Made by a program: the position numbers and the translations under genes
Shown here: positions 8,567-25,735 of the stretch, one piece after another
Numbering within the stretch: the stretch's first letter is position 1
Layout of the letters: each line of letters starts with the position of its first letter
Assembly (NCBI RefSeq): GCF_004339465.1
Contig: NZ_SMFY01000002.1
Location: 62,001-126,000 of the forward strand
Direction of reading: 5' to 3'
Source of the DNA: Ancylobacter aquaticus
Lineage (GTDB): Bacteria > Pseudomonadota > Alphaproteobacteria > Rhizobiales > Xanthobacteraceae
DNA: 64,000 nt
Notes under the pieces: model-generated
What the model saw: the letters and a program-made list of their open reading frames with translations, nothing else
Told to the model about the DNA's origin: nothing
Database searches by the model: none

Positions 8567-8711
8567 ATCCTTGATTTCATTGATCTTTTTTGGTTTTTTC
8601 GGCTAAAGCCGAACCGTTATCATAACCCGAAACTAGCCCCCCCTAGAATCAGAACCCCGCCGCCCTTGTGAGGCGACGGGGAGGCAGCCCGCGCATTTTG
8701 CGTCGGCAGTC

Positions 8712-8921
8712 TCAGCTGGCCGAACTGCCGGGGCGCAGGCCTTCCTTGACGTTGTCGACCATCCCTTGGCCAAGGACGACAACGCGCTGCAGGGCGTTCG
8801 CTTGGCGCGCTTCCAGGTCGGCTGCCATCATGTGGATGGCTTCCAGAAGGGCGCTGAGTTCGTCGAGGCGGTCGATGGTGTCGGAGATGGACGCAGGCAT
8901 CACGGGGCTATGGACGTTCAT
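8712..8921 (-). CDS. Small unknown protein, element 1
   Basis: 69 residues, mostly predicted helix (TIDRLDELSALLEAIHMMAADLEARQANALQRVV), possibly a short coiled coil. It overlaps the end of the preceding gene by four bases (ATGA), so it is translationally coupled to it. It is the last gene of element 1 before the tRNA junction. No family recognised. At this terminal position satellites and prophages often carry accessory cargo, but nothing in the sequence shows a function. Confidence 0.6.
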   Translation of the reverse strand: MNVHSPVMPASISDTIDRLDELSALLEAIHMMAADLEARQANALQRVVVLGQGMVDNVKEGLRPGSSAS

Positions 8922-9424
8922 GCCTGCCTCCCAGCGAGGCGCTCGATGTCCAGCACGAGCTTCGTCATCACGTGCTCCGGCCAATCCGCCTCTTCGCAAT
9001 CGACGGCGCCAGCATCCTCGATGCCGTGCAGGTCAAGCAACGCAAGGCGGGCTTTCGCGGCAAGCTCCAGAAGCGAGCACGCCGGCGTGTCGACGAGCTG
9101 ACCGAGCGCGTTGTCCATGCGCACTTCCACCTGACTTTCTGCCCGTCCGGCAGCCGTCGCGCCGTTGGCGTCGTAGATGGCGCTAGCGATTGCCCATTGC
9201 TGGTCGCCGGTCTGGACCCTGCTGGTGCCGCCCAGCGCCTTGATGGCCGCCTCGGCAGCTTTCATGGCAACGTCGTGCAGCGGTTTCCAGTGGGCGTTAA
9301 GGGGCAGCCATTCGGCCCGCGCGCACCAGTAATCTGCTTCAAGCTCGAGGATGGAGCGAGGGGCGACAGAAGGCTGTCTCTGCGCCGGGATGGCGTTGTC
9401 GTTGATCGGGGTGTGGAGGTTCAT
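8918..9424 (-). CDS. Unknown protein, element 1 left end
   Basis: 168 residues, starting MNLHTPINDNAIPAQ and then mainly helical and acidic. No recognised domain. It is coupled to the 69-residue gene downstream by an ATGA overlap. The 445 bases upstream are non-coding and contain a hairpin and repeated TTGATAA motifs, so this pair probably has its own promoter, separate from the packaging operon. Confidence 0.65.
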   Translation of the reverse strand: MNLHTPINDNAIPAQRQPSVAPRSILELEADYWCARAEWLPLNAHWKPLHDVAMKAAEAAIKALGGTSRVQTGDQQWAIASAIYDANGATAAGRAESQVEVRMDNALGQLVDTPACSLLELAAKARLALLDLHGIEDAGAVDCEEADWPEHVMTKLVLDIERLAGRQA

Positions 9425-9869
9425 GGGGGTTGCTCACTTCGCGGCTTATCAAGGCCGTGCCGGTGGCAGACCGGCAGCCGGGAGTTGATAACCTGCGAAA
9501 GCGACAGGCGACCGCGCTTTTAAGGGCCGGAACCCTCTGGACATGGCGCGGCCCTCCCGGCCATAATGGCCAGGTTGGAGCGCACGCCAATGCGCTGCCG
9601 TCATTCGACCGCCGCCCAACGCTGCCAGGCGTCAGGGCAATTCCTGCCAGGGAATGCGGTCTGTAGCTTTCGTCCGGGTTATCAAGCCCGCGGACACGGT
9701 GCCCCTGATTCTCTGATTGCGCAAGCGCTGCCCTACGTCGGGCGGCGGTTTTGCGTTGTGCGCTGCGAAGAGCGGTCAGCCCTAACTTCTCCACATCTGA
9801 CGAAGAGGCTGATGCGTGCTGGAGGGTATCCCCTCGCGCCAATTGGCGTGAGCAGATTGGGTGTGTCCA
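9425..9869. promoter_or_regulatory. Non-coding leader region with hairpin and TTGATAA repeats
   Basis: 445 bases without a credible gene, between a minus-strand pair and a divergent plus-strand gene. At 9458-9476 there is a perfect hairpin (TGCCGGT-GGCAG-ACCGGCA) just ahead of the minus-strand gene start. The heptamer TTGATAA or its complement occurs three times (about 9445, 9485 and 9680). It probably holds both divergent promoters and perhaps repressor sites. Confidence 0.4.
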
Positions 9870-10196
9870 ATGGCAAGCAAGAAAGAACCACCGTCCGGCA
9901 AGGGCTCTGGCCGGCGCTCGTCAGGCGGTGTTCCCACTATCCGCGCGACCAAGTTCGGCGGCGTCCAGATCGGACCTCGCGAGCCGTCTGGACCCGTAAC
10001 CATCGAGGAATGGCGGCGCATGCTGGTAATCTGCGCCAGGCTCGTCGACGAGTTCGGCGAGTCCGCTCTGCCGCTGTTCGAGAGATGCGAGCGCGAGATC
10101 GCAGAAGCCGAATCCAAGTCGTCGGCTATGGCTCGCGCCAAAGCGGTGCTGGAGGGCAGGGAGCCGCGAAAGCCCACCGATCCAGAGCCAGCGTGA
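9870..10196 (+). CDS. Unknown protein on the opposite strand of element 1
   Basis: 108 residues: a basic, low-complexity N-terminus (MASKKEPPSGKGSGRRSSGG) followed by a helical region (IEEWRRMLVICARLVDEFGESALPLFERCEREIAEAES). Apart from the integrase-proximal control sites, it is the only plus-strand gene I credit in element 1, so it is probably expressed independently, like a prophage cargo gene (moron). No family recognised. The ATG at 9870 is chosen over a GTG three codons earlier. Confidence 0.55.
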   Translation: MASKKEPPSGKGSGRRSSGGVPTIRATKFGGVQIGPREPSGPVTIEEWRRMLVICARLVDEFGESALPLFERCEREIAEAESKSSAMARAKAVLEGREPRKPTDPEPA

Positions 10197-10283
10197 CGTC
10201 CTGTTGCAGCCGCATGCGAGGCATATGCCGCCATGGGGAATAACGTTGACGACAATTTGACGCCAACGTTCACGCAGGACACT

Positions 10284-10308
10284 AGGAGTTCGCAAGTTGC
10301 GAGCTCCT
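10284..10308. terminator. Near-perfect palindrome between convergent genes
   Basis: AGGAGTTCGCAA-G-TTGCGAGCTCCT: 11 of 12 arm bases pair. It lies between the converging stops at 10196 and 10381, where a bidirectional terminator is expected. There is no long T-run, so a protein-binding site is possible too. Confidence 0.4.
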
Positions 10309-10380
10309 ACGCCGAAGACCAGGCCGCCCGAACAGGTCGCGGCCGTGACACGCCGGCAAAGTCAAGGTGAGCTCGGTGGC

Positions 10381-10911
10381 CTACCGCATTTGCATGACCC
10401 CATCGCGGATGGAAGAAGCATAGCCGTGCCCCATCGTTTCGAGTGCAAGCTTGTAAAACTCGTCGGCGGCTTTCCGTTTTGGAAGACCCGTTTGCCGAGC
10501 CAAACGCCGCGCCTCTGCAGAAAGTCCTGAGATATCACTCGATGTCACCATCCCACATTCGCTAACCTTTGCCGCGAACGCGGAGATTGTGACGGCGGGC
10601 AAGTCCGGGCCATAAACGAAGTAGCGCATGACTTCGAGAAAGTGGCCGTTCCGGACTATGTCCTCGCCCCTGTTGCCATTGCGTTCGAACTGCTCTTTCC
10701 TTGACGAGCCTCGACCGCCAACGTTGTAGTCGGCGTCGGTGAAATAGCGCATGCGGTGAGATGGCACAGCATTGCGGGCTCTTAGTGAACGAAGCAGTGC
10801 AACGACACGATCAGCATTGGCGTTGGCCTGAATATGGTCCCTGAGATTAAGGGCCTCGTACTCGATTTCCCTATCGAGCTTTTCTTCTTCAGGCGTCAGT
10901 TCTATCTTCAT
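10381..10911 (-). CDS. Unknown protein, end of packaging operon
   Basis: 176 residues. The N-terminus is strongly acidic (MKIELTPEEEKLDREIEYEAL); the rest is mixed, with a possible helical DNA- or protein-binding C-terminus (LSAEARRLARQTGLPKRKAADEFYK). It overlaps the upstream gene by four bases (ATGA) and so ends the packaging operon. A longer frame upstream is not credible. No family recognised; the position after the structural genes suits an accessory or virion-associated protein. Confidence 0.6.
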   Translation of the reverse strand: MKIELTPEEEKLDREIEYEALNLRDHIQANANADRVVALLRSLRARNAVPSHRMRYFTDADYNVGGRGSSRKEQFERNGNRGEDIVRNGHFLEVMRYFVYGPDLPAVTISAFAAKVSECGMVTSSDISGLSAEARRLARQTGLPKRKAADEFYKLALETMGHGYASSIRDGVMQMR

Positions 10912-11591
10912 GCTGCAACTCCGATGTCCCCGACAATAACACCCTCCGGCGCAATCTTCTCGCCTACCACGTCCGGCCACACGTGCAGGACGTCGCCATC
11001 CGGCATCAGGCCCGGCACGATCTCGACATGCGACACCCAGCCACCGACGCCGTGGCCCATAACTGGCTCGCCTCGACCGCAGGACAGATCGTCGATATGG
11101 GCACGTGCCCGTTCGAAAGCCGGCACGCCATGCTCGACAGGGTCGAACACTGAATCCTCCGGGATGTCATCGAGATCGACGCCGAAGGCGCAGCGATTGC
11201 CGAGGACGAACCAGCAACCGGCCGGCAGGTTGTCATGCACAGTGTCGGTGCAGCGGTAGAACACCTCGCCGCGAGCATGTTGGTCGGACCAGCCGGCGAC
11301 TATGATCTCGCAGTCCATGCCCTCCGGTAGCCCGGCTTCGAAGGTCTCCCACACATCGTCAGCGGCGCGCCGGAAGCCATCGAAACCCTCGATGTCGGCG
11401 AGGAGGCACGCCTTATAGAATTCTCGGAAGCAGCCGGTGATGCCGCGGAGCGAGAACACGGCATTCGCCATGGGGAGCGGGACGATCTTGTGCCGAAACG
11501 CCGTGACGACACCGTCAGCCGGATCATAGGTCGCAGCGTCCGCCATGACATGCACACGGTCGCTCTGCACGACAGCCAGCATCGCGCTCAT
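10908..11591 (-). CDS. Ntn-hydrolase-like phage protein
   Basis: 227 residues. The N-terminal VVQSDRVHVMADAATYDPADGVVTAFRHKIVPL resembles the first strands of proteasome-type Ntn hydrolases (a short strand, then DxATY, then a Lys-Ile turn). Related proteins are often encoded close to tail genes in prophages of alphaproteobacteria, so a virion-associated peptidase is possible; this is inference from fold-like patterns. An N-terminal nucleophile would need processing, and none is obvious after the initiator Met. It overlaps the tape measure gene by ATGA. Confidence 0.5.
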   Translation of the reverse strand: MSAMLAVVQSDRVHVMADAATYDPADGVVTAFRHKIVPLPMANAVFSLRGITGCFREFYKACLLADIEGFDGFRRAADDVWETFEAGLPEGMDCEIIVAGWSDQHARGEVFYRCTDTVHDNLPAGCWFVLGNRCAFGVDLDDIPEDSVFDPVEHGVPAFERARAHIDDLSCGRGEPVMGHGVGGWVSHVEIVPGLMPDGDVLHVWPDVVGEKIAPEGVIVGDIGVAA

Positions 11592-13174
11592 TGCAATTTC
11601 CCTTCGATGGAGAAGCCTGCCGGCCCTGTGCAGCCGCCGTCCGCGAGGCCGGGGAGCTTGGCGCCGCCGCCGAACAGCGACGACAAGAACCCGCCGCCCG
11701 CCGTCCCCGGCGCGCCGAGTAGGCCCGTGAGGACGTTCTGCAGACTGATCTCGATGATCTTGTCGAGGACGCTATTCAGGGCATTCGAGAGCGCGTCAGC
11801 TGCGCTCACGCCGTTGCGGATGTCGGAGATGAACCCACCAAGGGCGTCGTAGGCCGTGCCTCGGATTTCATCCATCGAGTCGACCAGCGCCGCCTGCGAC
11901 GCAGCCTGCGCCTCTAGCGCAGCGGCAGCCTGGCCGGAGCGTGCGGCGAGATCGTCGATCTGAGCCGTGTACTCCGGTGTCAGCTTGATGCCGGCGCGGG
12001 TGAGCTCGTTTATGAGTTCCTGTTTGACGCGAAGGGACTCAGCCGCGCCGGTCGTCAGGCCAAGCGCTTGCTGCTCGACGCCCATCTGCGTAATGCGCTG
12101 TTCGGCGGCCAGCACGATCTGGTCGTACGCCTTGGCCAACTGGTCCGCCGCCTCGGTGGCGGGCGTCTTGACCTTGGACAGGTCGCCCATTCCGCCGGTC
12201 GGATTGATCGTTACGCGCTGCGGCCGGGCATCGAGTTGCGACTGCAAGCCAGCGGCTTCGGCCAGTCGCCGGTCGATACCCTCCTGCCCACCGCCGAAGA
12301 CGAAGGCCGAAGACGACTTCCGCATGTTGTCAGCGGCAGCGGTCAGAAGGTCGATACGACGCTGGAGCGTGCTGTTCGACTGCGCCTCGGTGGCGTTGAG
12401 CATGTCGGAGAAGTCGCGCATCAAGGCGACCACGGACACCAGGGCGCCTTTGAGATTGGTACCGATCGTGGTGGAAAGCTTCGCGAAGGCGCGATCGATC
12501 TCGACGGCACGTTGAATCAGTTCGGTATCAATAACGTTGCCAGTGTCGCGAGCTTCTTGCCGCATCCGAGCGATGTATCCGGCGCCTTGGTCGATCAGCC
12601 GCAAGAACTGCTCACCACCGGATCCGCCGAACAACTCATCGCTGACACGAATCTGGCTGGCCTTGTCGAGGCGACCGAGCTTCTCGATGATCTCTTCGAA
12701 CAGGGCCGACGGATCGGCGAGCTTTTCCTTGAGATCAGCGGCATTGTAGCCAAGACGCTGGAACGCTTCCGCAGCACTTCCGGCCCCGCTGACAACGAAC
12801 TCATCCGCCCGAAGCTGTAGCTCCTTCAGGCCGTCGGCCATGGCGTCGAGGCCGACCAGCGCACCTTGCGCTGCGTAGCCCAACTCTTGGAATTTCTCGA
12901 CTTGGACGCCGGCCTTCTGCGCTTCGGCGTTCAATTGTGCCAGGTCTGAAGCGGCAGCCTTGGCGCCTGCAAACAGTCCGCCGACGCCGAGCCCGGCAAG
13001 CCCGAGCTTCAGCCCGTCACCGATGCCGGCGAATGCGCCGCGGACAACGCCTCCGACCTTGCCCGACTCCTTGCCAAACTTGTCGAGTTGCTTGCCAGCG
13101 CCTTTGAGACCCTCTTGGAATCGGGCGGAGTTCAAGCCCAGGTCGACATAAACGCCGCCCGCGTTGACGGCCAT
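11588..13174 (-). CDS. Tail tape measure protein (short, C-terminus cut at ADGGxTG)
   Basis: Tape measure proteins set tail length inside a growing siphovirus tail. The 528-residue product begins MAVNAGGVYVDLGLNSARF, has a hydrophobic Gly/Ala-rich segment near residues 45-70 (GLKLGLAGLGVGGLFAGAKAA), long helical regions, and ends with the lambda-like GGGAKLPGLADGGCTG. In most relatives that motif is followed by a further region (GG-rich, then HxGEYV); here it stops after 12 residues. By the usual 1.5 angstroms per residue it would specify a short tail (roughly 80 nm). The start overlaps the upstream stop (TAATG). No tail tube gene is visible in the element. Confidence 0.85.
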   Translation of the reverse strand: MAVNAGGVYVDLGLNSARFQEGLKGAGKQLDKFGKESGKVGGVVRGAFAGIGDGLKLGLAGLGVGGLFAGAKAAASDLAQLNAEAQKAGVQVEKFQELGYAAQGALVGLDAMADGLKELQLRADEFVVSGAGSAAEAFQRLGYNAADLKEKLADPSALFEEIIEKLGRLDKASQIRVSDELFGGSGGEQFLRLIDQGAGYIARMRQEARDTGNVIDTELIQRAVEIDRAFAKLSTTIGTNLKGALVSVVALMRDFSDMLNATEAQSNSTLQRRIDLLTAAADNMRKSSSAFVFGGGQEGIDRRLAEAAGLQSQLDARPQRVTINPTGGMGDLSKVKTPATEAADQLAKAYDQIVLAAEQRITQMGVEQQALGLTTGAAESLRVKQELINELTRAGIKLTPEYTAQIDDLAARSGQAAAALEAQAASQAALVDSMDEIRGTAYDALGGFISDIRNGVSAADALSNALNSVLDKIIEISLQNVLTGLLGAPGTAGGGFLSSLFGGGAKLPGLADGGCTGPAGFSIEGKLQ

Positions 13175-13524
13175 TACGCGACGTCCTTCGTGATGCTTGC
13201 CAGGAACACGCCAAGGGCGTTGCCGACAGCGGCGGAGCACGCGGCGATGCCGTACTCGGTAATCAGGCGGGAACCGTTGCGCTGATCCAGATACACCCCG
13301 ATGCTGGACAGGGCGCTGGACATGTCGAGCATCTTTCGCTCCATATCGGAAGGCGAGCCCGCCGTGAGCAAGGCGCGCATTGTGCGAAGGCTCGGGCCGG
13401 ACTCGGACTGGAGTTCGTCAACGATGCTCGCCAGCTTGGTCTCCAGGGCCTTCTCCGCCCACACGATTGAGGCCACGCTGAATTTCAGCCGAAGCTCTTT
13501 CGGCACGAGGTTGATAAGGCTCAT
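13174..13524 (-). CDS. Probable tail assembly chaperone
   Basis: 116 residues directly upstream of the tape measure gene, where tail chaperones (lambda G/GT type) normally lie. The pattern LRLKFSVASIVWAEKALE...SLRTMRALLTAGSP resembles the GTA-gp10/TAC_11 family (a short strand, an acidic helix, then a LRALLWAGL-like helix). Such proteins coat the tape measure before tube assembly. Assignment rests on position and this weak pattern. No frameshift product is evident. Its start overlaps the end of the gp10-like gene by four bases. Confidence 0.55.
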   Translation of the reverse strand: MSLINLVPKELRLKFSVASIVWAEKALETKLASIVDELQSESGPSLRTMRALLTAGSPSDMERKMLDMSSALSSIGVYLDQRNGSRLITEYGIAACSAAVGNALGVFLASITKDVA

Positions 13525-14066
13525 TTTGTTCCCTTCTTCGCGGCGCGGGCCGCGGAACGTTTGGCCGTCTTGGCGATTTCCGCCTCGATGTCGGCCGCTA
13601 TGGTGCGGGTGATATCGTTCTGCTCAGCGCGGAGCGCCGGCCCCATGAACGGCTGCGCCTTGGCGCCAGGGTGCTGGCCGTCGCCGATCTTGTGTGGGGC
13701 GGTTCCCCACTCAACGAGATGTGCGTGAGGAGCCGTGGCGCGGACACGGACGGTCGCCGAGGCACCGCGGCCCGCAGCGGCGGCATTGGCCTCACGGGCG
13801 GCTGCCGCCGCGTCCTGCCGGGACTCGCCGCCACGCATCGCCGCTGCGAATGCCGACTTCCCGGCGTTGCGACGGATCACGACGGTGCCGATGCTGCCCT
13901 TCAGCTCGCCATCATCCACCGGGGCATTACGCTTGGCCGCAGCTTCGACAGGCTTGGCGGCCTTCTTCAGCACCCGGTTAAGGACACCGACCTGCGTTGA
14001 TTTCTTTAAATCTTCGAGCCCCTTAAGTGTCTCGCGCAACCCGCTGATCTTCACGGTGGACTTCAC
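13521..14066 (-). CDS. HK97 gp10-like head-tail completion protein
   Basis: 181 residues of the HK97-gp10 type, a head-tail joining or tail-terminator component. Features: an N-terminal ISGLRETLKGLEDLKKS, the stretch AAKRNAPVDDGELKGSIG near residue 45, the VEWGTAPHKIG motif near residue 115 and the PFMGPALRAEQ segment near residue 140. All three internal motifs are typical of the family. It overlaps the start of the chaperone-like gene and the end of terL by four bases each. Such a protein is needed to close heads before tail joining. Confidence 0.85.
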   Translation of the reverse strand: MKSTVKISGLRETLKGLEDLKKSTQVGVLNRVLKKAAKPVEAAAKRNAPVDDGELKGSIGTVVIRRNAGKSAFAAAMRGGESRQDAAAAAREANAAAAGRGASATVRVRATAPHAHLVEWGTAPHKIGDGQHPGAKAQPFMGPALRAEQNDITRTIAADIEAEIAKTAKRSAARAAKKGTK

Positions 14067-15739
14067 CCGAATGCCTCCAGAACGCTCTCCCAGTCGTCGT
14101 CGTCATAGATCGAGCCGCCCTCCGCGCTCTGGCCCAGGCTCGCCCGACACACGGCCATAGCCGCCGCCACAGCGCCGTCAATCGAGAGCCAACGCTTGCT
14201 CTTGTGGAGGCGGGTTTTATGGCCGTGGGAGTTGGTCTCCACCTCGCAGTTCGCGAAACAGAAGCGCAGTACCGGATGGCCGCCGTGGTGGAGCCGGCCG
14301 GCGATGACCGAGCGCTCGAGCTCGGCGATGGCCGGCATCATGCTGAGCGTGCCCTGGCGGAACTCGATCGCGGGGAAGCCATCGTCGGTGAGGTTGTTCA
14401 GGACGTTACGAGCCATGGCCGGGTCGAATGCGATCTCGCGGACGTCATAGGTCTCGCAAAGCTCGCGGATGCGATCCTCGACGGCGCGGAAGTCGACAAC
14501 GTTGCCAGGCGTGGCGGTGATCAGCCCGTCGGCGGCCCAACGCACGTAGGGCGCGCCGGATGCCTCCTGTCGCTGCCGCAGGTTCGCGGACGGGCAGAAG
14601 AAGAAGGGCACGACGGTCGTGTCATCACCGTCGCGAAATGCCGCCACCACGACGGTCAGGTCGCCGTTGGACGACAGGTCAGCGGCTAACCAGCATTCCT
14701 TGCCGGCGAGTGCAGTCATGTTGATCGGTGCGCCGGTGGCGTCGTAGATGGCCATGTCGACGAAGGGCGCCGTTGCCTTGTCGCTCCACATGTTCAGGTT
14801 GAACTGCTTCAGATTTTCAAGATCGGCTGGCGAATGTTTCGCCTTGTTGACCTTGTCCATGAAGCTGGGCAGATCGGGGTAGCCGTGCCGCATGCCGGGG
14901 TTGACGGCGTTCCAAACTGCCGGGTCGTCCCATGCGTCGGTGGCTTCCGCCATGAAGATGACAGGCAATGTAGCCGGGTCTTCGATCTCGCCCTTCTGCA
15001 CCTTCAGCGCATGGCTGACGAACTGCCAGGCGATATTGTCTTCGCCGCGGCCGGCCGTCGTCGCGACAATCATCAGGGTGTCAGGGGTCTTCACCAGCGC
15101 CGAATCCAGCGCACCCCACAGATCCTCGCCCGCCTTGCCTTTCCAAACGTGGAGCTCGTCGGCGATCACGACGCGCGGCGTCTTGCCGTGCTGCACACGA
15201 CCGTCCGCGGCCAGCGCCTTGTAGGTGGTCTTGCGAGGGACGCAGCGGATGCGGCTCTTGGATGTCAGCACGTCCATGTTGCCGCGCAGCCGGGGATCAT
15301 GATTGATGATCAACTCGGCCTCGTTGAAGAGCTCAAGCGCCTGCTCATGCGCGGCTGCGGCCGATAGGATAAGGTCGCCTGCCGTGCTCTCCGGTCCAAT
15401 CAGGTGGAGTAGCGTGATCGCTGCACACAGGCTCGTTTTCCGCGCGCCCCGAGGCAAAAGAAGGCATACGCGCCGGACAATTCGAGCGCCCTTGCGTGCG
15501 ATGAGCACGCCATCCGCGTTGTGGATATCCTCGATGTGGCGAGGCCCGTACATGCGCCGGATAATCCGTTCCTGCCACGGGTCTAACTGGAAGGGATTCC
15601 CGCGCGCCGGATTCTTCGGGTGCTTCAGTCGGCGCAGCCACTGGACGGCTCGCTCGCCGTTTCCGAACGGGTCGTCAATCGGCTCCTGACTCGTAATCCA
15701 TGAGGGAGTCAGCACTATCGTCTTCTCCGATCTCAACAC
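14063..15739 (-). CDS. terL: Terminase large subunit
   Basis: DNA-packaging motor and nuclease. The 558-residue product has the ATPase domain with Walker A-like PRGARKTS (about residues 96-103) and Walker B VVIADELHVW (Asp194-Glu195), coupling motif ATTAGRGEDN, then the RNase H-like nuclease domain starting at LAADLSSNGDLT (Asp354) and AFDPAMARN. It is the Terminase_1 type that pairs with P27-like small subunits. The frame opens at TTG 15739 and overlaps terS by 65 bases; a GTG at 15715 would shorten it by eight residues. The start is therefore uncertain. Confidence 0.93.
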   Translation of the reverse strand: MLRSEKTIVLTPSWITSQEPIDDPFGNGERAVQWLRRLKHPKNPARGNPFQLDPWQERIIRRMYGPRHIEDIHNADGVLIARKGARIVRRVCLLLPRGARKTSLCAAITLLHLIGPESTAGDLILSAAAAHEQALELFNEAELIINHDPRLRGNMDVLTSKSRIRCVPRKTTYKALAADGRVQHGKTPRVVIADELHVWKGKAGEDLWGALDSALVKTPDTLMIVATTAGRGEDNIAWQFVSHALKVQKGEIEDPATLPVIFMAEATDAWDDPAVWNAVNPGMRHGYPDLPSFMDKVNKAKHSPADLENLKQFNLNMWSDKATAPFVDMAIYDATGAPINMTALAGKECWLAADLSSNGDLTVVVAAFRDGDDTTVVPFFFCPSANLRQRQEASGAPYVRWAADGLITATPGNVVDFRAVEDRIRELCETYDVREIAFDPAMARNVLNNLTDDGFPAIEFRQGTLSMMPAIAELERSVIAGRLHHGGHPVLRFCFANCEVETNSHGHKTRLHKSKRWLSIDGAVAAAMAVCRASLGQSAEGGSIYDDDDWESVLEAFG

Positions 15740-16100: not shown

Positions 16101-16387
16101 CCGAACGACCATGCGCGGTGGTTCGCCAGGATCTCGGCAGCATTCAACGGTATGTCCACCAGCGCGCCGTCGCTGGCGTTTTCTCTGTTCGCGTACCAGT
16201 GGCCAGCAATGAGAAGGGCGGCTTGGACGACATCGCCGGCAGGCGCAGGCGGCTCCTCGACGTCGGCGCATAGCAGCCCTGACACGTAGTCGTTCGCTGC
16301 GGCGACCACTTGGCCGGCGATAAGGTCGTCGTCGTCGAAGTCGATGCGGGCGTGTTCCTTGAACATCGCCAGTGTAATCACTTCCAT
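16097..16387 (-). CDS. Head-tail connector protein (gp6-like)
   Basis: 96-residue adaptor of the HK97 gp6/phage QLRG type, which sits under the portal ring. Typical features are the N-terminal MFKEHARIDFDDDDLIAGQVVAAANDYV and the VQAALLIAGHWYANRE helix, followed by the PLNAAEILANHRAW C-terminus. It lies between the HNH gene and terS and is coupled to terS by ATGA. Confidence 0.85.
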   Translation of the reverse strand: MEVITLAMFKEHARIDFDDDDLIAGQVVAAANDYVSGLLCADVEEPPAPAGDVVQAALLIAGHWYANRENASDGALVDIPLNAAEILANHRAWSFG

Positions 16388-18783: not shown

Positions 18784-18790
18784 TATTGGC

Positions 18791-19315: not shown

Positions 19316-20532
19316 GCCGCGGCCTCCTTCGGTTTTGGTTCGGGGTTGTCGTTGGCCGGGGCGGGAGCGCCGGGCGTGGTGTAGGGGCTGCCCAGCGTGT
19401 CGCCGTCCGGCAATGCGGGCAGGTTTTCGCGGCGCCTCACGTCATTGCTGGTCATGGCGCCCATTGCCCGAAACTTCGCGTAGGCCTCGGCGCGCGTCGC
19501 GGTGTCGGCGCGTAGAAGGTCGTCCACGATGAACTCCAGCGAGTGTGTCGCGCGCTCCTCGACAGTCAGCAGCGTGCGCCGGTAAGCATCCGTCCACGCC
19601 TTGAGCCACGGCAGAAGACATAGCTGCAGGAACTGCAACGCCTGCTGCTCTGTATTCGCGAACGTGCCCTTGGAAAGCTCCTGCAACATCGTCACGGGCA
19701 CGCGCGTGAGCCGTGCAATCTCGGCTATGGCGAAGTTCCGTTGCTCGATGTGCTGGGCCTCAACCGACGTGAACGCGATCGGGGTGTACTCGCCGCCGCC
19801 ATCCACGACGGCAATGCCCCCGGACTTGCCCCCACCATGTGCCGCGCGCCAGGCTGCACCAACGCGCTCGACCGTCTCTTTTCGCAGCTGAGACTTGAAC
19901 GAAAGTACGCCGCCGGGCCGCGAGTTGTTCTTGAACAAAGAGGCGCTGGTGCGCTCCAGAAGGATCGCGAGGCCGATGGCGTCGACACCCGCACGCAACA
20001 GGCCGAGACCCGTCTTTCCGCCGAGCGATGGCGCCTGCACGTGGATAACATCGGCTGGCGTGTAGACCCGCCCGCCGATGGTGTAGCGCGGCTCCCCGGT
20101 GTCGAGATGGTTCAGCCCGACCTTGTCCCTCGGCAGATAGATGATGGCAAAGGGGCGATTGCCGCCACGGCTTACAAAGGCATATCCATCGCCATGCAGG
20201 AGCGCGTCAGCCGTGACGAGCTCTCGCACCTTGCCGGCGGACTGCCATTCGTTCGCCTCGTCGTGGATCAGCGCATAAGCCGGATGGGTGTCGTCCACGT
20301 CCTTGCCGTCGCCATCCTTGCGATAGACTTTGCAAGGCAACGTTCCGATCGACTGGCAGATCAGCGTAACGGCGGCGTTGACAGGGGCGCAACGCATGGC
20401 GCTCTCCGCCGACACCGTCACGCCGGTGGTGCTGGATGCGAGCGCCGCGGTGAGGGCCTCCCAAGAATCCGAAGTCGGGTCTGTCAGGTCCGATTTCGTC
20501 TCGACGGGCGCCGGGCGGTTAAAGGGCCACAT
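19312..20532 (-). CDS. Portal protein (HK97 family)
   Basis: 406-residue subunit of the dodecameric portal at the packaging vertex. It begins MWPFNRPAPVETKSD and contains family stretches VNAAVTLICQSIGTLP, PLRDKVG-type IIYLPRDKVGLNHLDTG, DVIHVQAPSLGGKTGLGLL and the C-terminal EIARLTRVPVTMLQELSKGTFANTEQQ. The C-terminus is Pro/Ala-rich. The 5' end overlaps the preceding HTH gene by 14 bases. Confidence 0.93.
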   Translation of the reverse strand: MWPFNRPAPVETKSDLTDPTSDSWEALTAALASSTTGVTVSAESAMRCAPVNAAVTLICQSIGTLPCKVYRKDGDGKDVDDTHPAYALIHDEANEWQSAGKVRELVTADALLHGDGYAFVSRGGNRPFAIIYLPRDKVGLNHLDTGEPRYTIGGRVYTPADVIHVQAPSLGGKTGLGLLRAGVDAIGLAILLERTSASLFKNNSRPGGVLSFKSQLRKETVERVGAAWRAAHGGGKSGGIAVVDGGGEYTPIAFTSVEAQHIEQRNFAIAEIARLTRVPVTMLQELSKGTFANTEQQALQFLQLCLLPWLKAWTDAYRRTLLTVEERATHSLEFIVDDLLRADTATRAEAYAKFRAMGAMTSNDVRRRENLPALPDGDTLGSPYTTPGAPAPANDNPEPKPKEAAA

Positions 20533-20962
20533 GTGATTCCTCTGGGAAGTAGGCGCGCCGGCAAGCCGCGTATGTCGCGTCCGCTATGGTGCTGGCCGGA
20601 ATGAAGATGAAACTCGACCCGCCGAGGTCGGCGAGGCTGGCGCCCTTGACCAGCCGCACCTGCGAGGTGGCGATGCCGCCGTTGCGGGCGATGATCACAT
20701 CGCTGGCCTGGATCTGATCGACGAGCTCGAAGGCCGCGGCGAGCGCGGTCAAGATGACGTAGCCGCCTCGAACCAGTTCATGCGCAAGGCGGAGGATCAG
20801 GATGTCGTGCGCGCTGAACCAACGGCGGCCGCGTTTGCGTTCCGACGCCAGGTCGGCGGCGCCTTCGCACATCCAGACCCGCAAAGTGCTTAGGTGAATT
20901 CCGGCCAGATCCGCCGCCTCGGCTTGCGCGAAGGCGCGGTCAAGCCGCCAGTCGAATGGCAT
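20519..20962 (-). CDS. HTH (MerR-like) protein heading the packaging operon
   Basis: 147 residues. The N-terminal region resembles a MerR-type winged helix (EAADLAGIHLSTLRVWMCEGAADL, then RRWFSAHDILILRLAHELVRGGY), followed by a C-terminal domain without a recognised match. It has a strong ribosome site (GCAGGAGGCCAGCC before the ATG at 20962), is the first gene after an intrinsic terminator, and overlaps portal. A late-operon activator or a DNA-binding packaging accessory are both possible. Confidence 0.65.
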   Translation of the reverse strand: MPFDWRLDRAFAQAEAADLAGIHLSTLRVWMCEGAADLASERKRGRRWFSAHDILILRLAHELVRGGYVILTALAAAFELVDQIQASDVIIARNGGIATSQVRLVKGASLADLGGSSFIFIPASTIADATYAACRRAYFPEESHVAL

Positions 20963-21297
20963 GGCTGGCCTCCTGCTTCATGAGCAGCAATGTTGATGGG
21001 GTAAATAAAAAGCCGCCCGGAGGCGGCTGCTGGTCTTCTGAGGCGCGGAGAGAGAAAGAATGTCTTCTCACAACTAGGTGCACTGGGCCGGGATTGGGTA
21101 TACCCATTCCCCGTCAGTCTCACCGGGCAGCGAGAGTATCTTCTCATTACTACGTGCGCGGGGACGGCACTTTAGTTTAAACCAGACGAGCCGCACGCAA
21201 GGATGGGGCCATCGGGAATGCGTGCCCTCTCATATATACCCGCTTTTTTAGCCCTTTTTCTTCGACAGGCGCCCGATCCAGTATACGCAACCGGAAT
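20963..21297. promoter_or_regulatory. Control region between replication and packaging genes
   Basis: 335 bases without a gene. It holds an intrinsic terminator (listed separately), two 19-base direct repeats of TCTTCTCAnnACTAnGTGC at 21063-21081 and 21139-21157 (16 of 19 identical), and a perfect 12-base palindrome TGGGTATACCCA at 21095-21106 between them. Spacing of the repeats is 76 bases. The arrangement suggests binding sites for a regulator of the packaging operon. Confidence 0.5.
21001..21028 (-). terminator. Intrinsic terminator ahead of packaging operon
   Basis: Read on the minus strand: AGCCGCC-TCCG-GGCGGCT followed by TTTTTATTTA. A seven-pair GC stem with a T-run is a textbook rho-independent terminator. 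It would stop leftward transcripts from the integrase-helicase operon just before the HTH and portal genes, so packaging genes need their own promoter or antitermination. Confidence 0.8.
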
Positions 21298-21711
21298 TTA
21301 TGCAGGGATTGCGATGCGCGCCTTCAAGGCGGCGTCCCGCAAAGCAAGGTCCCGTTCCAGGCGCGCTATCCGGCGGGTGGCATGCGCCATAGCGGAGCGT
21401 TCCAGCGCGCGCTGGCCAGATGCCCAGACCATCAGACGGCCTGCCGCATGAAGCTGCGCACAGGCATAGGCGACAGCCTGTACGCGGCTCGAATAACCAG
21501 ATGCATCCCGCCCGGCTTCTTCCAAGCTCTTGCGGTCCACCAGTACGGCATGGACGATGTCGACCAGCGCAGCATGCCGCAGGACTTCATCGACAGCGGG
21601 CCGGAACGCGGGATCGCTGGAGTACGCTTGACACGCCAGCGCGGCGTCGCGCTCGCCTCGGGGAAAGACGGCGCGGAGGATCTTGCCGACTGGATCGACG
21701 CGGGCGGTCAT
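21298..21711 (-). CDS. Unknown helical protein, element 1
   Basis: 137 residues, almost entirely predicted helix, ending in a likely coiled coil (ATRRIARLERDLALRDAALKAR). It also has VLRHAALVDIVHAVLVDRKSLEEA near residue 45. No family recognised. The ATG at 21711 overlaps the stop of a 49-codon frame upstream, so it belongs to the helicase operon. It is followed by the control region and terminator. Confidence 0.6.
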   Translation of the reverse strand: MTARVDPVGKILRAVFPRGERDAALACQAYSSDPAFRPAVDEVLRHAALVDIVHAVLVDRKSLEEAGRDASGYSSRVQAVAYACAQLHAAGRLMVWASGQRALERSAMAHATRRIARLERDLALRDAALKARIAIPA

Positions 21712-21857
21712 CTTTCGACTCCAAGAGTGCCGAAGTTCGCACGGGGTTCGAACCCCGTGTGCGCACTTCGCACACTAAGGGGGGTATGGGGGGTGTGTGC
21801 GAAGCAGTAGTTCGAAGGGGTTCGAAGCAGTTCGAAGGTGAGTTCGAAGGTCGTCAT
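21708..21857 (-). CDS. Possible 49-residue coupled peptide across the iteron block
   Basis: A frame too short for usual gene calls: starts MTTFELTFELLRTP and ends GTLGVER. It overlaps the helicase stop by ATGA at one end and the next gene's start by ATGA at the other, the same coupling used elsewhere in this operon. Its first codons are the TTCGAA repeats described separately. It may be a real small protein, or translation through an origin that merely keeps ribosomes coupled. Low codon information; treat as tentative. Confidence 0.35.
   Translation of the reverse strand: MTTFELTFELLRTPSNYCFAHTPHTPLSVRSAHTGFEPRANFGTLGVER
21740..21848. repeat. Palindrome and TTCGAA iteron-like block (candidate origin)
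   Basis: Contains a perfect 20-base palindrome CACGGGGTTCGAACCCCGTG (21740-21759), an inverted pair GTGTGCG/CGCACAC (21757-21763 and 21769-21775), and four TTCGAAG repeats starting at 21811, 21821, 21831 and 21843, i.e. spaced 10, 10 and 12 bases, about one helical turn. It directly adjoins the stop of the RepA-like helicase gene. Iterons and palindromes next to a replication helicase suggest a replication origin, though a regulator site is possible. Confidence 0.5.
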
Positions 21858-23470
21858 TCGGCCTCGCCTCCGAACATATCAGCGGTAACATAGAGCCTCT
21901 TGTAGCGGCGGGAGTTTGGTCCTTCCTCAACGATCTTGATGGTGCAGGCGTCGAGCAGGCGGTGCATTGCCTCCTGGTAATGGGCCTTGGTTATGCCCTT
22001 GCCGTCCGGGTGCTGAGAGAAGACCCTCGGCGCATAGGACTGGCTGGGATTCGGGCTGACGGTCTGACCTAGGCGGTTCATCTTGGAAAGCAATTCGACG
22101 AATTTCTCGTCATGCTTCCTGTGCACCATACCCATCATGGCCGGAACGGCAGTGCCGTCATCGAGCGTGAACGCGCCGTCGCTATAGCGAATGCGCAACT
22201 GGCTGCCCTTCTTTCCGTAGTTCGCCTTCATCGTGGTCAGGGTGCGGACGTCGGGATCTTCGTTCTTCTCCGCATCCGTCAGGTAGAGTCGACTCCGCAC
22301 GGAGTTATTCCACGCGGTGCTGCCGCTTGAACCCGTGCCGGATTTCATTCCCTCGACAGACGGGTGAGCAAGAAGCACTGCGGCGCAATCGGCCTTGATC
22401 GCGAGCCTACGCAGCATGCCGATAAATTGCCGGGTCTGGTTGCGTTTTATCTCGTCCCCGCCGAACAGGTCTGCAGCCGTGTCCAGCACCAGCAGCTTCG
22501 GCTGGAAATCCAGTACGTCACCCCAGAGTTTGTTCCAGAGCGGCGTGGGCTGCATCACTCCCTTACGGTCAGGCGTCGACAGCAGCGCGTCCATGTCAGC
22601 CATCGGGAGCAGCATGAAGTCGTTGAGGTCGGAGAGCACCCGATCGTGTGCGCGCACGATGTCCGCCGTCCGCCGATGAAATTCCGACTCCTCATCCTCT
22701 GCGCCGAGATACATTACCCGGCCAGCGAGGGGAGTGGTGCCCAACGTCTCAACGCCGAGCGCACCGGCACAAGCCAGTTGCAGGGCAAGCAGCGACTTCC
22801 CGACGCCACCGTCGCCGTTGATGATCGTCACCTGCCTCATAGGGATGAGGCCGGGCAACCACCACGCGCGCTCCGGCACAGGATGGCCCTGCCATGAGGT
22901 CGGGCAAACATATCGGAGATCCGATGAGCTTTCGGTCCCCGCAGCAGGGGCGGCGGGCATGATGGCCGACTCCGCCACCTCGCGCTCGACCATACGCTCG
23001 ATGACCTTCTCTGAAAGATTCGGGCGCAGATCCGCCATCTCTTCGGCGAGCGGCCGCAGGCGCGGCATGGTCCGCTCGCGCAATGGCGTGCCCGTGCGGA
23101 TGGCGTTGCGGACCATCTCGGTGGCTGCAGGATACGGTTCGTGGCAGTCGATCTGCTCCACCTGGAGATCGCCACCCCGATCGAGCACCGCAATGCGGAT
23201 ACCGGCCGGCGCTTCAGGGATGAATCGCTTGAACGTGTCCACCAGCACGCCGAGCCGTGGCAGATCGTGCTCCGGGAGCGTGTCCAGATTTCCGGTGTAG
23301 AAATCAAGGCCCTCGACGGCTAGGCGCTCGTGATCGAGGTCGCCAGACGGAGTGACAGGGAACAGGGCCGTGTCGCCGTAGAGAGCCTGCCGCATTTGGC
23401 GGACCCGCCCGAGTACAACGGAGCGGGCGGGGAGGTGCAGGACGTCGGAACTAGGCTGCGGCACGGTCAT
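21854..23470 (-). CDS. RepA-like replicative helicase / AAA_25 ATPase
   Basis: 538 residues. The C-terminal two-thirds is a RecA-fold ATPase of the RepA/AAA_25 type: Walker A GDGGVGKS (about residues 219-226), MYLGAEDEESEFHRR after it, Walker B KLLVLDTAADLFGG, and VLLAHPS. These enzymes are hexameric helicases of plasmids and phages. The N-terminal 170 or so residues are unassigned, and the C-terminus has a wHTH-like segment (KAHYQEAMHRLLDACTIKIVEEG). The start at 23470 overlaps the upstream gene by 20 bases. With the adjacent repeats it probably drives the element's own replication. Confidence 0.85.
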   Translation of the reverse strand: MTVPQPSSDVLHLPARSVVLGRVRQMRQALYGDTALFPVTPSGDLDHERLAVEGLDFYTGNLDTLPEHDLPRLGVLVDTFKRFIPEAPAGIRIAVLDRGGDLQVEQIDCHEPYPAATEMVRNAIRTGTPLRERTMPRLRPLAEEMADLRPNLSEKVIERMVEREVAESAIMPAAPAAGTESSSDLRYVCPTSWQGHPVPERAWWLPGLIPMRQVTIINGDGGVGKSLLALQLACAGALGVETLGTTPLAGRVMYLGAEDEESEFHRRTADIVRAHDRVLSDLNDFMLLPMADMDALLSTPDRKGVMQPTPLWNKLWGDVLDFQPKLLVLDTAADLFGGDEIKRNQTRQFIGMLRRLAIKADCAAVLLAHPSVEGMKSGTGSSGSTAWNNSVRSRLYLTDAEKNEDPDVRTLTTMKANYGKKGSQLRIRYSDGAFTLDDGTAVPAMMGMVHRKHDEKFVELLSKMNRLGQTVSPNPSQSYAPRVFSQHPDGKGITKAHYQEAMHRLLDACTIKIVEEGPNSRRYKRLYVTADMFGGEAE

Positions 23471-23720
23471 CTGAATCCATCCCCATGGCGTCGAGCGCCT
23501 CATCGATCACATGGCGGCGCACGTCCGGCGCCAAGTTGACGGTCGTGGTGCCGCCGTTACCGGCCGGCCCGTAGACGAAGATCCGCCCGTCCGGCGCGCG
23601 AACCAAACTGCAGTTCATGATGACGACGCCGTCGATCGGCTCGAGATCGAACCGACATAGCGGCGTGAATCCTCGCCGCCCCGGCGGCATGGTCAGCCGC
23701 CGGACGTTTCGAATACGCAT
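23451..23720 (-). CDS. Small unknown protein, SpoVG-like pattern
   Basis: 89 residues. MRIRNVRRLTMPPGRRGFTPLCRFDLEPIDGVVIMNCSLVRAPDGRIFVYGP has the alternating-strand look of SpoVG-type nucleic-acid-binding domains, with a helical tail (RRHVIDEALDAMG). The match is weak and by eye. It lies between the AlpA group and the helicase, where phage replication accessory proteins occur. The start at 23720 removes a His/Thr-rich upstream stretch. Confidence 0.55.
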   Translation of the reverse strand: MRIRNVRRLTMPPGRRGFTPLCRFDLEPIDGVVIMNCSLVRAPDGRIFVYGPAGNGGTTTVNLAPDVRRHVIDEALDAMGMDSDDRAAA

Positions 23721-23814
23721 GCGTGCTCCTTCCCGCGCGGCATGCCGGCGGGTGGTGGTGGTGTGGGTGGGGGTGATGGGGGATGGGTGGCGATTTCGGC
23801 GCCACCCACTAAGA

Positions 23815-24051
23815 TCAGTCGTCGAGGTCGAGGAACCCGCGAGTTCGGTAAACCGACTCTCTCTCATCCTCGCGCTCTACGCACGAGGCGACGAAATTGG
23901 CGTTTTCCTTACGCTTGACCGCCGATTCAACTCGGATGGCGCCCTGTATAACCAGTAGCGATGCCGCACCATCTGGCGTCATGCCCATGGCCCGTAGACG
24001 GGACAGCGCGTCTTCGATGATGGCGCGGGCTTCTGCTTGCTTGTCCGACAT
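23815..24051 (-). CDS. Small unknown protein coupled to AlpA-like gene
   Basis: 78 residues, helical N-terminus (MSDKQAEARAIIEDALSRLRAMGMTPDGAASLL), acidic C-terminus (RGFLDLDD). It starts within the stop codon of the AlpA-like gene (TGATG overlap), so the pair is co-translated. No family recognised. The frame extends far upstream but only this part is plausible. Confidence 0.6.
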   Translation of the reverse strand: MSDKQAEARAIIEDALSRLRAMGMTPDGAASLLVIQGAIRVESAVKRKENANFVASCVEREDERESVYRTRGFLDLDD

Positions 24052-24287
24052 CACGCGGCCCTCCCGTTCCGAGCCGCGATGCGCTGGTTGATCCAGTCCA
24101 TGACCTCGGCGCGGACGAAGCCAATGCGACGCTCGCCAAGTTGGACCGAAGCTGGAAACTGTCCGGCAGCCCGCAGGCTGTTGATGGCGGGCCTCGAAAG
24201 GCTCGTCATGGCGGCGGCGGTCTTTATGCTGATGATGGGCGGGTGATTGTCGTTCGCCGCGACAGCGGCAGCAGTGCAGGTCGTCAT
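24051..24287 (-). CDS. AlpA-like HTH regulator / excisionase
   Basis: 78 residues. The centre is an AlpA/excisionase-type winged helix: IISIKTAAAMTSLSRPAINSLRAAGQFPASVQLGERRIGFVRAEVMDWINQRIA. It ends with the typical DWINQR motif. AlpA proteins activate integrase genes or act as directionality factors in satellites and prophages. It is next after the integrase on the same strand, separated by 125 bases that hold the likely promoter. Confidence 0.85.
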   Translation of the reverse strand: MTTCTAAAVAANDNHPPIISIKTAAAMTSLSRPAINSLRAAGQFPASVQLGERRIGFVRAEVMDWINQRIAARNGRAA

Positions 24288-24412
24288 TCGAACCCCGTTT
24301 CACTAGGGGTTGCGCTGTAGCCTGCGGGCTTCACGTCGCCCGCCGAACGAGGTTATGCAAACGAACCTACACCAAAGATAGGCATTTTCGCCGGCAATGT
24401 CAACATATAGAT

Positions 24413-25582
24413 CTAGAGTTTCTTGCCGGCACAAAAACTGGACCAGTTCGCCATGAGGGCGCGGCGCTTCTCGAGCGCGTCTTTCCGCCGATAGGCGGCT
24501 TCAACGCCCTGAATCGTATGCGCGAGTGCCGCCTCGCACACCTCTCTAGGGTAGGCGGTCATGTCGCCGGCCCAGTCCCTGAACGACGATCGGAAGCCGT
24601 GTAGCGTCACCGCCTTGTTGGGCGCCGCCTTCGCCAACGACTTTACCAGGGCGGTGTCCGATATCGGCCGGCCCTCGCGCTCACCTTCAAACACGAGGGC
24701 GCCGGATCGGACGGCAGCCCGCTCTTTCAGAATGTCGACGGCGCGGGCGGGGAGGGGGACACGGTGCTCGACGCCGGCCTTCATCCTCGTTGCGGGGATG
24801 GTCCATAGCGCCTTGTCTAGATCGATCTCTTCCCACGCCGCGCTACGGACCTCACCGGAGCGCCCGGCCGTGAGGACCATAAACTCGATCGCCCGTGCCG
24901 AGGTGCTTTTGCTCGAGCGCAACTCGGCCAGAACGGCAGGCACGTCGTGATAATCCAGGGCGGCGTGGTGCCCGCGGGAGAGCTTCTTTTGGCGCGGCAG
25001 CAGTTTATCGAGATTGCCTTTCCAGGCCGCGGGATTGTCGCCGCTGCGCAATCCACGCGCCTTCGCGTAGTCCAAGACGATGCCGATCCGGCTTCGCAGG
25101 CGGTCGGCCGTCTCGGGACGCTCAGTCCAGTGTGGCGTGAGGCAGGCCACCACGTCATCGACCGAAACCTTGGCGACTGAAAGGTTATGCAGCGGCTTCG
25201 CGTATTCTCGGAGCGTCATCTGCCATTGCTGACGATGCTTCTCGTTCTTCGACTCCTGTGCCTTCAGATCCAGCACCGCCTCCATCGCCTCCGCGAAGGT
25301 CAGTTCCTTCTTCGGCTGGCGAGGGCGGGGGTCTTCACCCCTTGCCAAGGCTTCGCGGATGGCGTCGGCTTTTTCGCGGGCCAGCTTCAGCGACACCGGC
25401 GCCGTACCTGCGCCATGTCCGCCGAGGCCGATCTCGCGGCGCTCGCTCCCGCGGCGCCAGATGAAAATCCAGTTCCGGCTTCCGCCTTTCTGGATCCGCA
25501 ACCAGAGGCCATCGCCATCCCCGTAGATACCGGGCTTTGTGAGGGTTCGAATCCCGCTTTCGGTCAATTTGTGACGTGGCAC
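24413..25582 (-). CDS. int: Tyrosine integrase of element 1
   Basis: P4/CP4-57-type site-specific recombinase with an N-terminal DUF4102-like arm-binding domain (KLTESGIRTLTKPGIYGDGDGLWLRI). About 389 residues from the GTG at 25582. Catalytic residues: Arg in LTAGRSGEVRSAAW, His-x-x-Arg in LHGFRSSFRDWAG, and Tyr in EAAYRRKDALEKRR. A frame start at 25636 would add 18 non-homologous residues. It lies at the right end of element 1, about 140 bases from the middle tRNA-end repeat, and is transcribed away from it. A 15-base copy of the tRNA-Ser T-arm lies inside its 5' end (25541-25555). Confidence 0.93.
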   Translation of the reverse strand: MPRHKLTESGIRTLTKPGIYGDGDGLWLRIQKGGSRNWIFIWRRGSERREIGLGGHGAGTAPVSLKLAREKADAIREALARGEDPRPRQPKKELTFAEAMEAVLDLKAQESKNEKHRQQWQMTLREYAKPLHNLSVAKVSVDDVVACLTPHWTERPETADRLRSRIGIVLDYAKARGLRSGDNPAAWKGNLDKLLPRQKKLSRGHHAALDYHDVPAVLAELRSSKSTSARAIEFMVLTAGRSGEVRSAAWEEIDLDKALWTIPATRMKAGVEHRVPLPARAVDILKERAAVRSGALVFEGEREGRPISDTALVKSLAKAAPNKAVTLHGFRSSFRDWAGDMTAYPREVCEAALAHTIQGVEAAYRRKDALEKRRALMANWSSFCAGKKL

Positions 25583-25721
25583 GTTATGACAATCCCGAGG
25601 AACTGGCGGACACCGAATTTCTTCGACGCTTATCATAACGACGATTTTGACGATAATGATTTTTTCAGCGTTTTCAGCGACTAACGAGCCGAAATGTCAG
25701 TAAAAACGGCGGAGGGTAGGA

Positions 25722-25735
25722 CTCCGTCTCCGCCA
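25722..25735 (+). other. Middle attachment repeat between the two elements
   Basis: CTCCGTCTCCGCCA, identical to the last 14 bases of tRNA-Ser (8551-8564). Flanking bases differ from the tRNA. It sits between two back-to-back integrase genes and lies in an imperfect inverted repeat (GGCGGAG at 25709, CTCCGCC at 25728). It is the right end of element 1 and the left end of element 2. Confidence 0.8.

Follow-up and report, generated by a model that had tools for sequence, protein, structure and literature searches.

A candidate phage satellite with its own head genes and tape measure in Ancylobacter aquaticus

Introduction

Some known phage satellites borrow a head, others a whole tail. For the capsid-forming PICIs (cf-PICIs), a 2023 title by Alqurainy reportedly has the whole tail coming from the helper phage.

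PMC10803314 gives cf-PICIs an average size of 14 kb. According to the legend of Extended Data Fig. 10 in PMC12987554, some of them contain putative tmp genes, and on the strength of that legend the lack of tail genes may not define the family. The same paper describes the PLEs of Vibrio cholerae as the first satellite family known for chimeric tails, in which the PLE tape measure and chaperone are used and the heads are the helper's; reliance on helper capsid protein is stated in PMC10945586. The locus described here, from the alphaproteobacterium Ancylobacter aquaticus, has features of both groups.

Results

Within the window, the 64,000-nt stretch of DNA that we analysed, an intact element of 17,171 bp occupies positions 8565-25735. 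These bounds follow from the end of a tRNA-Ser gene at 8564 and from exact copies of a 14-nt core, CTCCGTCTCCGCCA, at 8551-8564, 25722-25735 and 36915-36928. With up to one mismatch tolerated, the core occurs four times in the window; the average over 100 shuffles is 0.09. The flanking tRNA-end repeats reported in an earlier note on this DNA are present, although the repeat is short and exact in the 14-nt core only. The third core copy implies a further stretch, 11.2 kb long and led by an integrase, in tandem with the element.

We called 23 genes in the element (Table 1), of which 20 were scanned against both Pfam and PHROGs, two against NCBIfam only, and one (23451-23618) against no library. 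The matches agree with the earlier note in its list of integrase, AlpA, helicase-like, HTH, portal, protease, capsid, HNH, connector, TerS, TerL, gp10 and tape-measure genes, and library scans of the element genes found no tail tube, baseplate, fibre, holin or lysin, as it had also stated. However, its term "tail-less" was too strong, because the element has a weak match to a tail family (phrog_2115) as well as Neck1 and the tape measure. The integrase is 89% identical to that of G219_b, which is sited at the same tRNA-Ser, and a longer reading of 23451-23618 has a 59% match to G219_a. The product of 10908-11591 has relatives at 93%, 59% and 51% in three Ancylobacter genomes and, beyond phrog_13702 (E 0.002), no library match.

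Table 1. Features of the element and its integration site (positions in the window)
Feature	Position	Strand	Basis or remark
tRNA-Ser(gct)	8473-8564	+	integration site; final 14 nt = att core
Small gene, no assigned function	8712-8921	-	gene call
Gene, no assigned function	8918-9424	-	98% copy elsewhere in genome
Small ORF, no assigned function	9870-10196	+	99% copy elsewhere in genome
ORF, weakly supported, no assigned function	10381-10752	-	gene call
Gene directly after tape measure, no assigned function	10908-11591	-	Ntn-hydrolase-like by eye only
Tape measure, 528 aa	11588-13174	-	phrog_10574, E 1.6e-103; dN/dS 0.09
Probable tail assembly chaperone	13174-13524	-	weak phrog_2115, E 1.6e-5; position
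gp10/Neck1	13521-14066	-	Pfam and/or PHROGs
Terminase large subunit, TerL	14063-15715	-	Pfam and/or PHROGs
Terminase small subunit, TerS (Terminase_4)	15675-16100	-	Pfam and/or PHROGs
Head-tail connector (gp6-like)	16097-16387	-	Pfam and/or PHROGs
HNH endonuclease	16503-16964	-	Pfam and/or PHROGs
p143, no assigned function	17114-17545	-	phrog_5707; conserved, adjoins capsid gene
HK97 major capsid protein	17644-18783	-	E 5.4e-82
Prohead protease (S78)	18791-19315	-	E 4e-32
Portal	19312-20532	-	PF04860, E 1e-88
MerR-like HTH regulator	20519-20962	-	Pfam and/or PHROGs
Gene, no assigned function	21298-21711	-	gene call; NCBIfam: no useful match
AAA_25 ATPase, replicative/helicase-like	21854-23470	-	Pfam and/or PHROGs
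Small gene, no assigned function	23451-23618	-	gene call
Small gene, no assigned function	23815-24051	-	gene call; NCBIfam: no match
AlpA-like regulator/excisionase	24051-24287	-	PF05930, E 6.8e-12
Tyrosine integrase	24413-25636	-	Arm-DNA-bind_3, Phage_integrase
att core, second copy (14 nt)	25722-25735	+	right element end

The element resembles EcCIEDL933 (CP-933C), the E. coli cf-PICI prototype, in having an integrase, an AlpA-like HTH, a replication gene, its own HK97 head, HNH, a P27-type TerS and TerL, with the capsid before the terminase and without tip or lysis genes. The EDL933 order is MCP-protease-portal-head closure-connector-HNH-TerS-TerL, so that "capsid before terminase", which the earlier note took as a departure from described cf-PICIs, is shared with this one; the two differ in the head genes, MCP-protease-portal in EDL933 versus portal-protease-MCP here. 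Unlike EDL933, the Ancylobacter element has gp10, the probable chaperone and the tape measure after TerL, and in a tree with this one cf-PICI its TerL sits in another clade. As in cf-PICIs, integrase, AlpA and a replication gene are combined with compact size (17.2 kb) and a specific site, and portal, protease, capsid, connector, HNH, TerS and TerL are all its own. Where cf-PICIs reportedly have no tail genes, it has a tape measure, Neck1 and a probable chaperone.

Its own tape measure and chaperone, the latter here a weak match, are likenesses to the PLEs; unlike those headless Vibrio cholerae elements, it has its own head genes. Relatives in Shinella (L085) and on contig L245 lie within or next to the hub gene of a prophage and so recall the helper-embedded PICIs, which according to PMC10111431 derive from another integrase clade, whereas the Ancylobacter element is in a tRNA-Ser rather than in a helper late gene. 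The Streptomyces satellites Mulch and Flayer also carry their own encapsidation genes, but as described in PMC10690885 they lack key replication genes, and they come from another phylum. The tail hub or tip and lysis genes of a complete temperate phage are absent by similarity. The element is set apart from tail-less cf-PICIs by its tape measure, probable chaperone and neck protein; chimeric tails in PLEs and putative tmp genes in some cf-PICIs are already in print in the sources above.

TerS-TerL-tape measure loci are spread over Rhizobiales and Rhodobacterales, so the element is no one-off deletion. This order occurs in 51 of the 94 loci that have both TerL and a tape measure, a set found through the tape measure that counts three pairs of duplicates and a copy of the element itself. 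Fourteen repeat-bounded elements, the Ancylobacter element included, measure 16.8-19.2 kb, and one more is embedded in a prophage. All 15 carry portal, protease, capsid, HNH, gp10, TerS, TerL and tape measure, and none matched the hub, NlpC, fibre or lysis queries, an absence by similarity that should be read against control prophages, where with self-hits dropped a hub was found in three of four and lysis genes in one of four. Among contigs chosen by TerL, 49 of 80 were 12-22.5 kb long, and hub matches appeared in two of the 80, both element insertions in prophages. Many relatives additionally encode a tail tube and a terminator, and some encode Dit.

The module is also present on small closed plasmids. 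Phage_min_tail, which PMC10111431 uses as a prophage marker, is present on plasmid pMPOP02; in a PHROGs tally of 71 plasmid proteins, 25 of 107 families are among the matches listed, a count from which absence cannot be deduced. This TerL scored above 500 bits in 8 of 385 sampled genomes of the class (own genome included), likely a low count because three candidates were scored per genome.

In the TerL tree, 47 elements and three plasmids form one clade (support 100/99) that stands apart from the sampled phages and from the E. coli cf-PICI, which is represented by one sequence on a long branch. Values of dN/dS are 0.09 for the tape measure, 0.10 for gp10 and 0.09 for the integrase.

The earlier note had proposed relatives within complete prophages as a sign against a satellite. 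Relatives instead end at att repeats, and the two that do lie within prophages are insertions. In Shinella, the satellite splits the prophage hub gene; residues 436-658 of its tape measure are 43% identical to the split prophage and its Dit 66%, and the first 435 residues have no match. The relative on L245 lies between two tail genes.

Discussion

We interpret the element as a self-headed phage satellite whose tape measure forms the core of chimeric tails, a reading to which we give a probability of about 0.7. It is based on gene content, boundaries, recurrence and constraint, and on one interface that resembles a particular prophage; helper dependence, chimeric tails and particles we infer. 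The satellite proposed in the earlier note is retained insofar as the head and packaging genes are the element's own and it recurs without detected hub or lysis genes, but it is not quite a tail-less cf-PICI.

In this model, the integrase and AlpA would excise the element and its ATPase would replicate it. An HK97-type head would be built from the element's genes and filled by its TerS and TerL. The element would contribute the neck protein, the probable chaperone and the tape measure; the tail tube, adsorption tip and lysis genes, none of which is recognisable in it, would be taken from a helper. Helper tube and tip would then assemble on the satellite tape measure, giving a chimeric tail on a satellite head. 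At 1.5 angstrom per residue, the 528 aa of the tape measure would correspond to a tail of about 80 nm. Docking to the helper tip may take place at the tape-measure C-terminus and the adjoining gene, which is Dit in some members and 10908-11591 in the Ancylobacter element. An idea that the tape-measure N-terminus is satellite-only was dropped, because it also occurs in ordinary phages, which are among the 43 remaining loci.

An entirely helper-derived tail, as in a classical cf-PICI, would leave the genes for tape measure, chaperone and neck without a structural role, for example as passengers or as a decoy that would disturb helper tail assembly. The Ancylobacter element has no tail tube of its own, and no tape measure was detected next to TerL in 14 of the 54 loci of the TerL clade that have 3 kb of downstream sequence, both points in favour of this explanation; PLE11 moreover uses a separate protein to block helper tail assembly (PMC12987554). 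Yet tape measure, chaperone-like gene and gp10 are kept together after TerL and are constrained, and tail tube and terminator are added in many relatives, which makes this explanation unlikely. It is also rather improbable that the element is a phage or phage-plasmid of very small size, complete but with a tip and lysis genes that went unrecognised. Genes with no assigned function lie at 8.7-11.6 kb and include p143, circular plasmid forms are known, and one control prophage has a hub that the queries failed to find. However, in the Ancylobacter element and the majority of members the interval between tape measure and att contains just a few short genes, too little for hub, fibres and lysis by known phage design. 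Points against our own reading are the Phage_min_tail on pMPOP02, the TerL-clade loci with no detected tape measure and, among 112 proteins encoded beyond the tape measure in other members, one tail fibre match and one endolysin-family match.

We consider a tail-deleted or decayed prophage stranded at the tRNA very unlikely. The tape-measure C-terminus is indeed ~110-120 aa shorter than in relatives, but the shortened tape measure and the same next gene are 92-93% conserved in another species, the layout is repeated in bounded elements of many genera, a similar one occupies a 16.1 kb closed plasmid, and the genes are under purifying selection. That the element recurs in relatives where no hub or lysis genes were detected likewise favours the earlier note's choice of a satellite over a tail-deleted prophage.

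More tentatively, the relatives may form a single-origin alphaproteobacterial lineage in which the head and often the whole shaft (tube, terminator, tape measure and Dit) are the satellite's own, with tip and lysis supplied by helpers. Its docking module would be exchangeable, the tape-measure C-terminus and next gene having been taken from helpers, and it would live as tRNA islands, islands in prophage hub genes and small plasmids. In such a lineage, head genes belonging to the satellite would go together with satellite tail gene sets of graded extent, so that the cut point between head, tail and tip, and the protein that chooses the tip, become testable. The open-access literature searched gave no account of such elements in Alphaproteobacteria. 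This class would gain a satellite lineage that is in part already on record, under the guise of small plasmids and short proviruses.

The same assembly gives no sign of a resident helper, since its single phrog_9 TerL is the element's and elsewhere only a hub/fibre/muramidase-like fragment was located, via phrog_31; one hub protein used as query had no match in this genome. A tape measure at G000:C1:1461532 was considered as part of a resident helper and rejected, as no head genes or TerL were detected in its region. That region, with integrase, primase-like, protease-like and chaperone-like genes, gp10 and tape measure, is another tape-measure element.

Gene content and boundaries

The window element, in an Ancylobacter genome, is real, apparently intact and recurrent; it is probably a satellite, and by gene content it is intermediate between capsid-forming satellites (cf-PICIs) and PLEs, the satellites of Vibrio cholerae. 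Exact copies of a 14-nt att core set its limits and its length of 17,171 bp. Its minus-strand genes comprise, in sequence, integrase, AlpA, an AAA_25 ATPase and a MerR-like regulator, then portal, protease, capsid, p143, HNH, connector and the small and large terminase subunits (TerS, TerL), and beyond TerL, Neck1 (gp10), a probable chaperone, the tape measure and an unnamed gene. Of the 23 genes called, 20 were scanned against Pfam and PHROGs and two more against NCBIfam only; these scans revealed no tail tube, tip, fibre, holin or lysin. The gene p143, which we guess encodes a decoration protein, comes after capsid in many elements and likewise, at 28%, in prophage G219x.

Features of the window element and its neighbor, and islands in the same genome
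Feature	Position	Strand	Remark
tRNA-Ser(gct), 3' boundary	8564
att core CTCCGTCTCCGCCA, exact copies	begin at 8551, 25722, 36915
Window element	8565-25735
Unnamed gene ("next gene")	10908-11591	-	adjoins tape measure
Tape measure	11588..13174	-
TerL	14063..15715	-
p143	17114-17545	-	phrog_5707
Tandem second element	25736-36928		P4-type integrase at 25898
L174 + L175	G000:C1:1446001-1482000		near tRNA-His
L037	G000:C2:641001-660000		near tRNA-Asn
L305 + L306	G000:C2:240001-277000

Against a relative in the congener G165 (G165_C10), dN/dS was 0.09 for the tape measure, 0.10 for gp10 and 0.20 for the next gene; for the integrase against G219_b it was 0.09. Against G165_C4 it was 0.24 for p143, and 0.34 for capsid and 0.35 for TerL, both too diverged for reliance. 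The third exact core delimits an 11.2 kb second integrase-led stretch, in tandem after the window element, in which exonuclease-like and repressor-like genes were named by eye and inspection by eye recognized no structural genes.

Recurrence and graded tail sets

Fourteen elements, the window element included, are bounded by exact repeats at tRNA genes and measure 16.8-19.2 kb. The repeats are 48 bp in G219_a, 47 bp in G261 and G060, 45 bp in G165_C4, 19 bp in G264, 16 bp in G195, 67 bp in Methylopila, 49 bp in Salipiger pallidus and Roseivivax, 47 bp in Salipiger mucosus, 39 bp in Martelella, 18 bp in Jannaschia and 17 bp in Citreimonas. Excluded were G301 and G306, whose repeats of 16-17 bp have no tRNA beside them, and G219_b, for which the search gave no exact repeat. 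Together with a prophage-embedded Shinella element, all 15 carry the head set and the tape measure, and none matched hub, NlpC, fibre or lysis queries. With self-hits dropped, the hub was recovered in three of four control prophages (missed in G136x) and lysis in one of four, which makes the lysis test weak. Downstream of the tape measure, 112 of 133 listed proteins were retained after integrases and host-like genes were removed by eye; among the matches listed (25 of 61 families) were tail chaperonin (16), distal tail (6), a tail protein family (2), tail fibre (1) and an endolysin family (1).

The tape measure was matched in 31 of 296 family genomes at 1e-10, and pattern scans for it gave 47 loci in species genomes and 71 in IMG/VR. 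Both TerL and tape measure were matched in 94 of 119 loci screened: TerL lies just upstream (<=1.1 kb) in 51 (three pairs of duplicates and a copy of the window element are counted among them), 6.3-9.5 kb upstream in 42, as in ordinary siphophages, and downstream in one. We compared gene content in 36 loci chosen by TerL plus tape measure, with at least 8.2 kb of upstream sequence and three duplicates removed. Besides those two genes, portal, protease, capsid, HNH, gp10 and TerS are each present in all 36, head closure in 34, tail terminator in 33, tail tube in 27, connector in 23, p143 in 21 and chaperone matches in 15. The fullest member, Shinella L085, carries by PHROGs a major tail protein, Neck1, terminator, head closure, tape measure, distal tail protein (Dit) and chaperone. 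The window-like layout, TerL followed by gp10, chaperone and tape measure with no tail tube match, is also seen in Xanthobacter L059 and in G195, whose tape measure is broken.

A TerL profile scan of IMG/VR returned at least 546 relatives, of which the best 80 were sampled. With provirus ends predicted, 49 contigs are 12-22.5 kb, 8 longer and 23 shorter. A tape measure lies near TerL in 40 of the 54 contigs with at least 3 kb downstream; none was detected in 14. Tip or lysis matches occur in 5 of 80: L222 and L245 are insertions in prophages, L243 has one tail protein match (4e-11), L270 an NlpC-like match (1e-7) and L290 a lysis match (2e-39) 7.8 kb past TerL. The lineage thus grades from forms with head genes only, by way of those that add a tape measure, such as the window element, to forms with both head and tail shaft.

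Small closed plasmids carry TerL relatives at 36-52% identity. P. marcusii unnamed5 is 17.5 kb, its origin spanned by the tape measure. Methylorubrum pB146-3, which is 16.1 kb long, encodes a ParA-like ATPase besides capsid, p143, connector, head closure, TerS, TerL, chaperone, gp10, tape measure, terminator and a distant relative of the next gene; a tail tube was not found on it. pMPOP02 (23.4 kb, Tn3 insertion, TerL annotation partial) has a tail tube and a Phage_min_tail protein. Roseomonas pTT14-8 (16.9 kb) carries IS21, and no tape measure was found on it. Hub and lysis genes were neither annotated nor matched on the four plasmids, for which PLSDB tables are incomplete and some proteins were scanned singly.

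Our TerL tree has 75 rows (47 elements, three plasmids, 24 phages, a thin sampling, and the E. coli EDL933 cf-PICI). A branch supported at 100/99 separates the elements and plasmids from the phages and the cf-PICI; a long-branch warning applies to the cf-PICI, the window element, pB146-3 and HK544. Among 50,697 phage records, TerL matched 1,482; none of these reaches 60% identity, and none of the 30 best rows exceeds 33%.

Possible links to helper prophages

The Shinella satellite is inserted in a prophage, whose hub (J) gene it interrupts; this prophage also has Dit, DUF2163-like, NlpC and fibre genes, together with terminase and head genes named by eye. Residues 436-658 of the satellite tape measure are 43% identical to the surrounding prophage, and residues 1-435 have no match to it; the Dit is 66% identical, and a 1,049 bp stretch is shared at 68% nucleotide identity. 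L245, a second embedded case, is a TerL-clade satellite lacking a tape measure, between prophage NlpC-like and hub genes, the hub frame being open. The tape measures of the Ancylobacter elements match those of tailed prophages at 24-49% identity, mostly in their C-terminal halves; of four alignments for the window element, three begin no earlier than residue 237 and one begins at residue 44. G219 holds two such satellites plus a prophage with hub and endolysin. The G186 TerL is 92.7% identical to that of G165_C4 and its tape measure is different, which suggests that modules are swapped.

From these genes, the element would form heads and package DNA itself, and its tape measure, chaperone and neck would recruit a helper's tube and tip. 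As one study states, PLE virions contain the PLE tape measure inside tails otherwise largely of the helper, deletion of the tape measure gene (tmp) lowers transduction by 96% in PLE1 and 99% in PLE4, and tape measures are unreported from other satellites (PMC12987554). Putative tmp genes are mapped there in some cf-PICIs, and a cf-PICI-like element with its own tape measure is therefore no novelty in itself. As far as the open-access literature searched reaches, what is new is the alphaproteobacterial clade and the gradation of its tail sets, its occurrence as plasmids, and the copy embedded in a hub gene, whose interface resembles that of the prophage.

Similarity searches found no complete helper in the window's own genome (G000). 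The genes of its L305/L306 region, named in part by eye, include an integrase, a hub C-terminal piece, a fibre-like and a muramidase-like type, with no head cluster. The L174/L175 island has integrase, primase-like, protease-like and chaperone-like genes, gp10 and a 706-aa tape measure; head and terminase genes were not found in it. Tape-measure elements poor in head genes also occur in G136 C2 and G133. L037, with no head matches, carries a tape-measure piece 90% identical to that of the window element and copies, at 82-99%, of the element's small genes between 8.7 and 10.2 kb.
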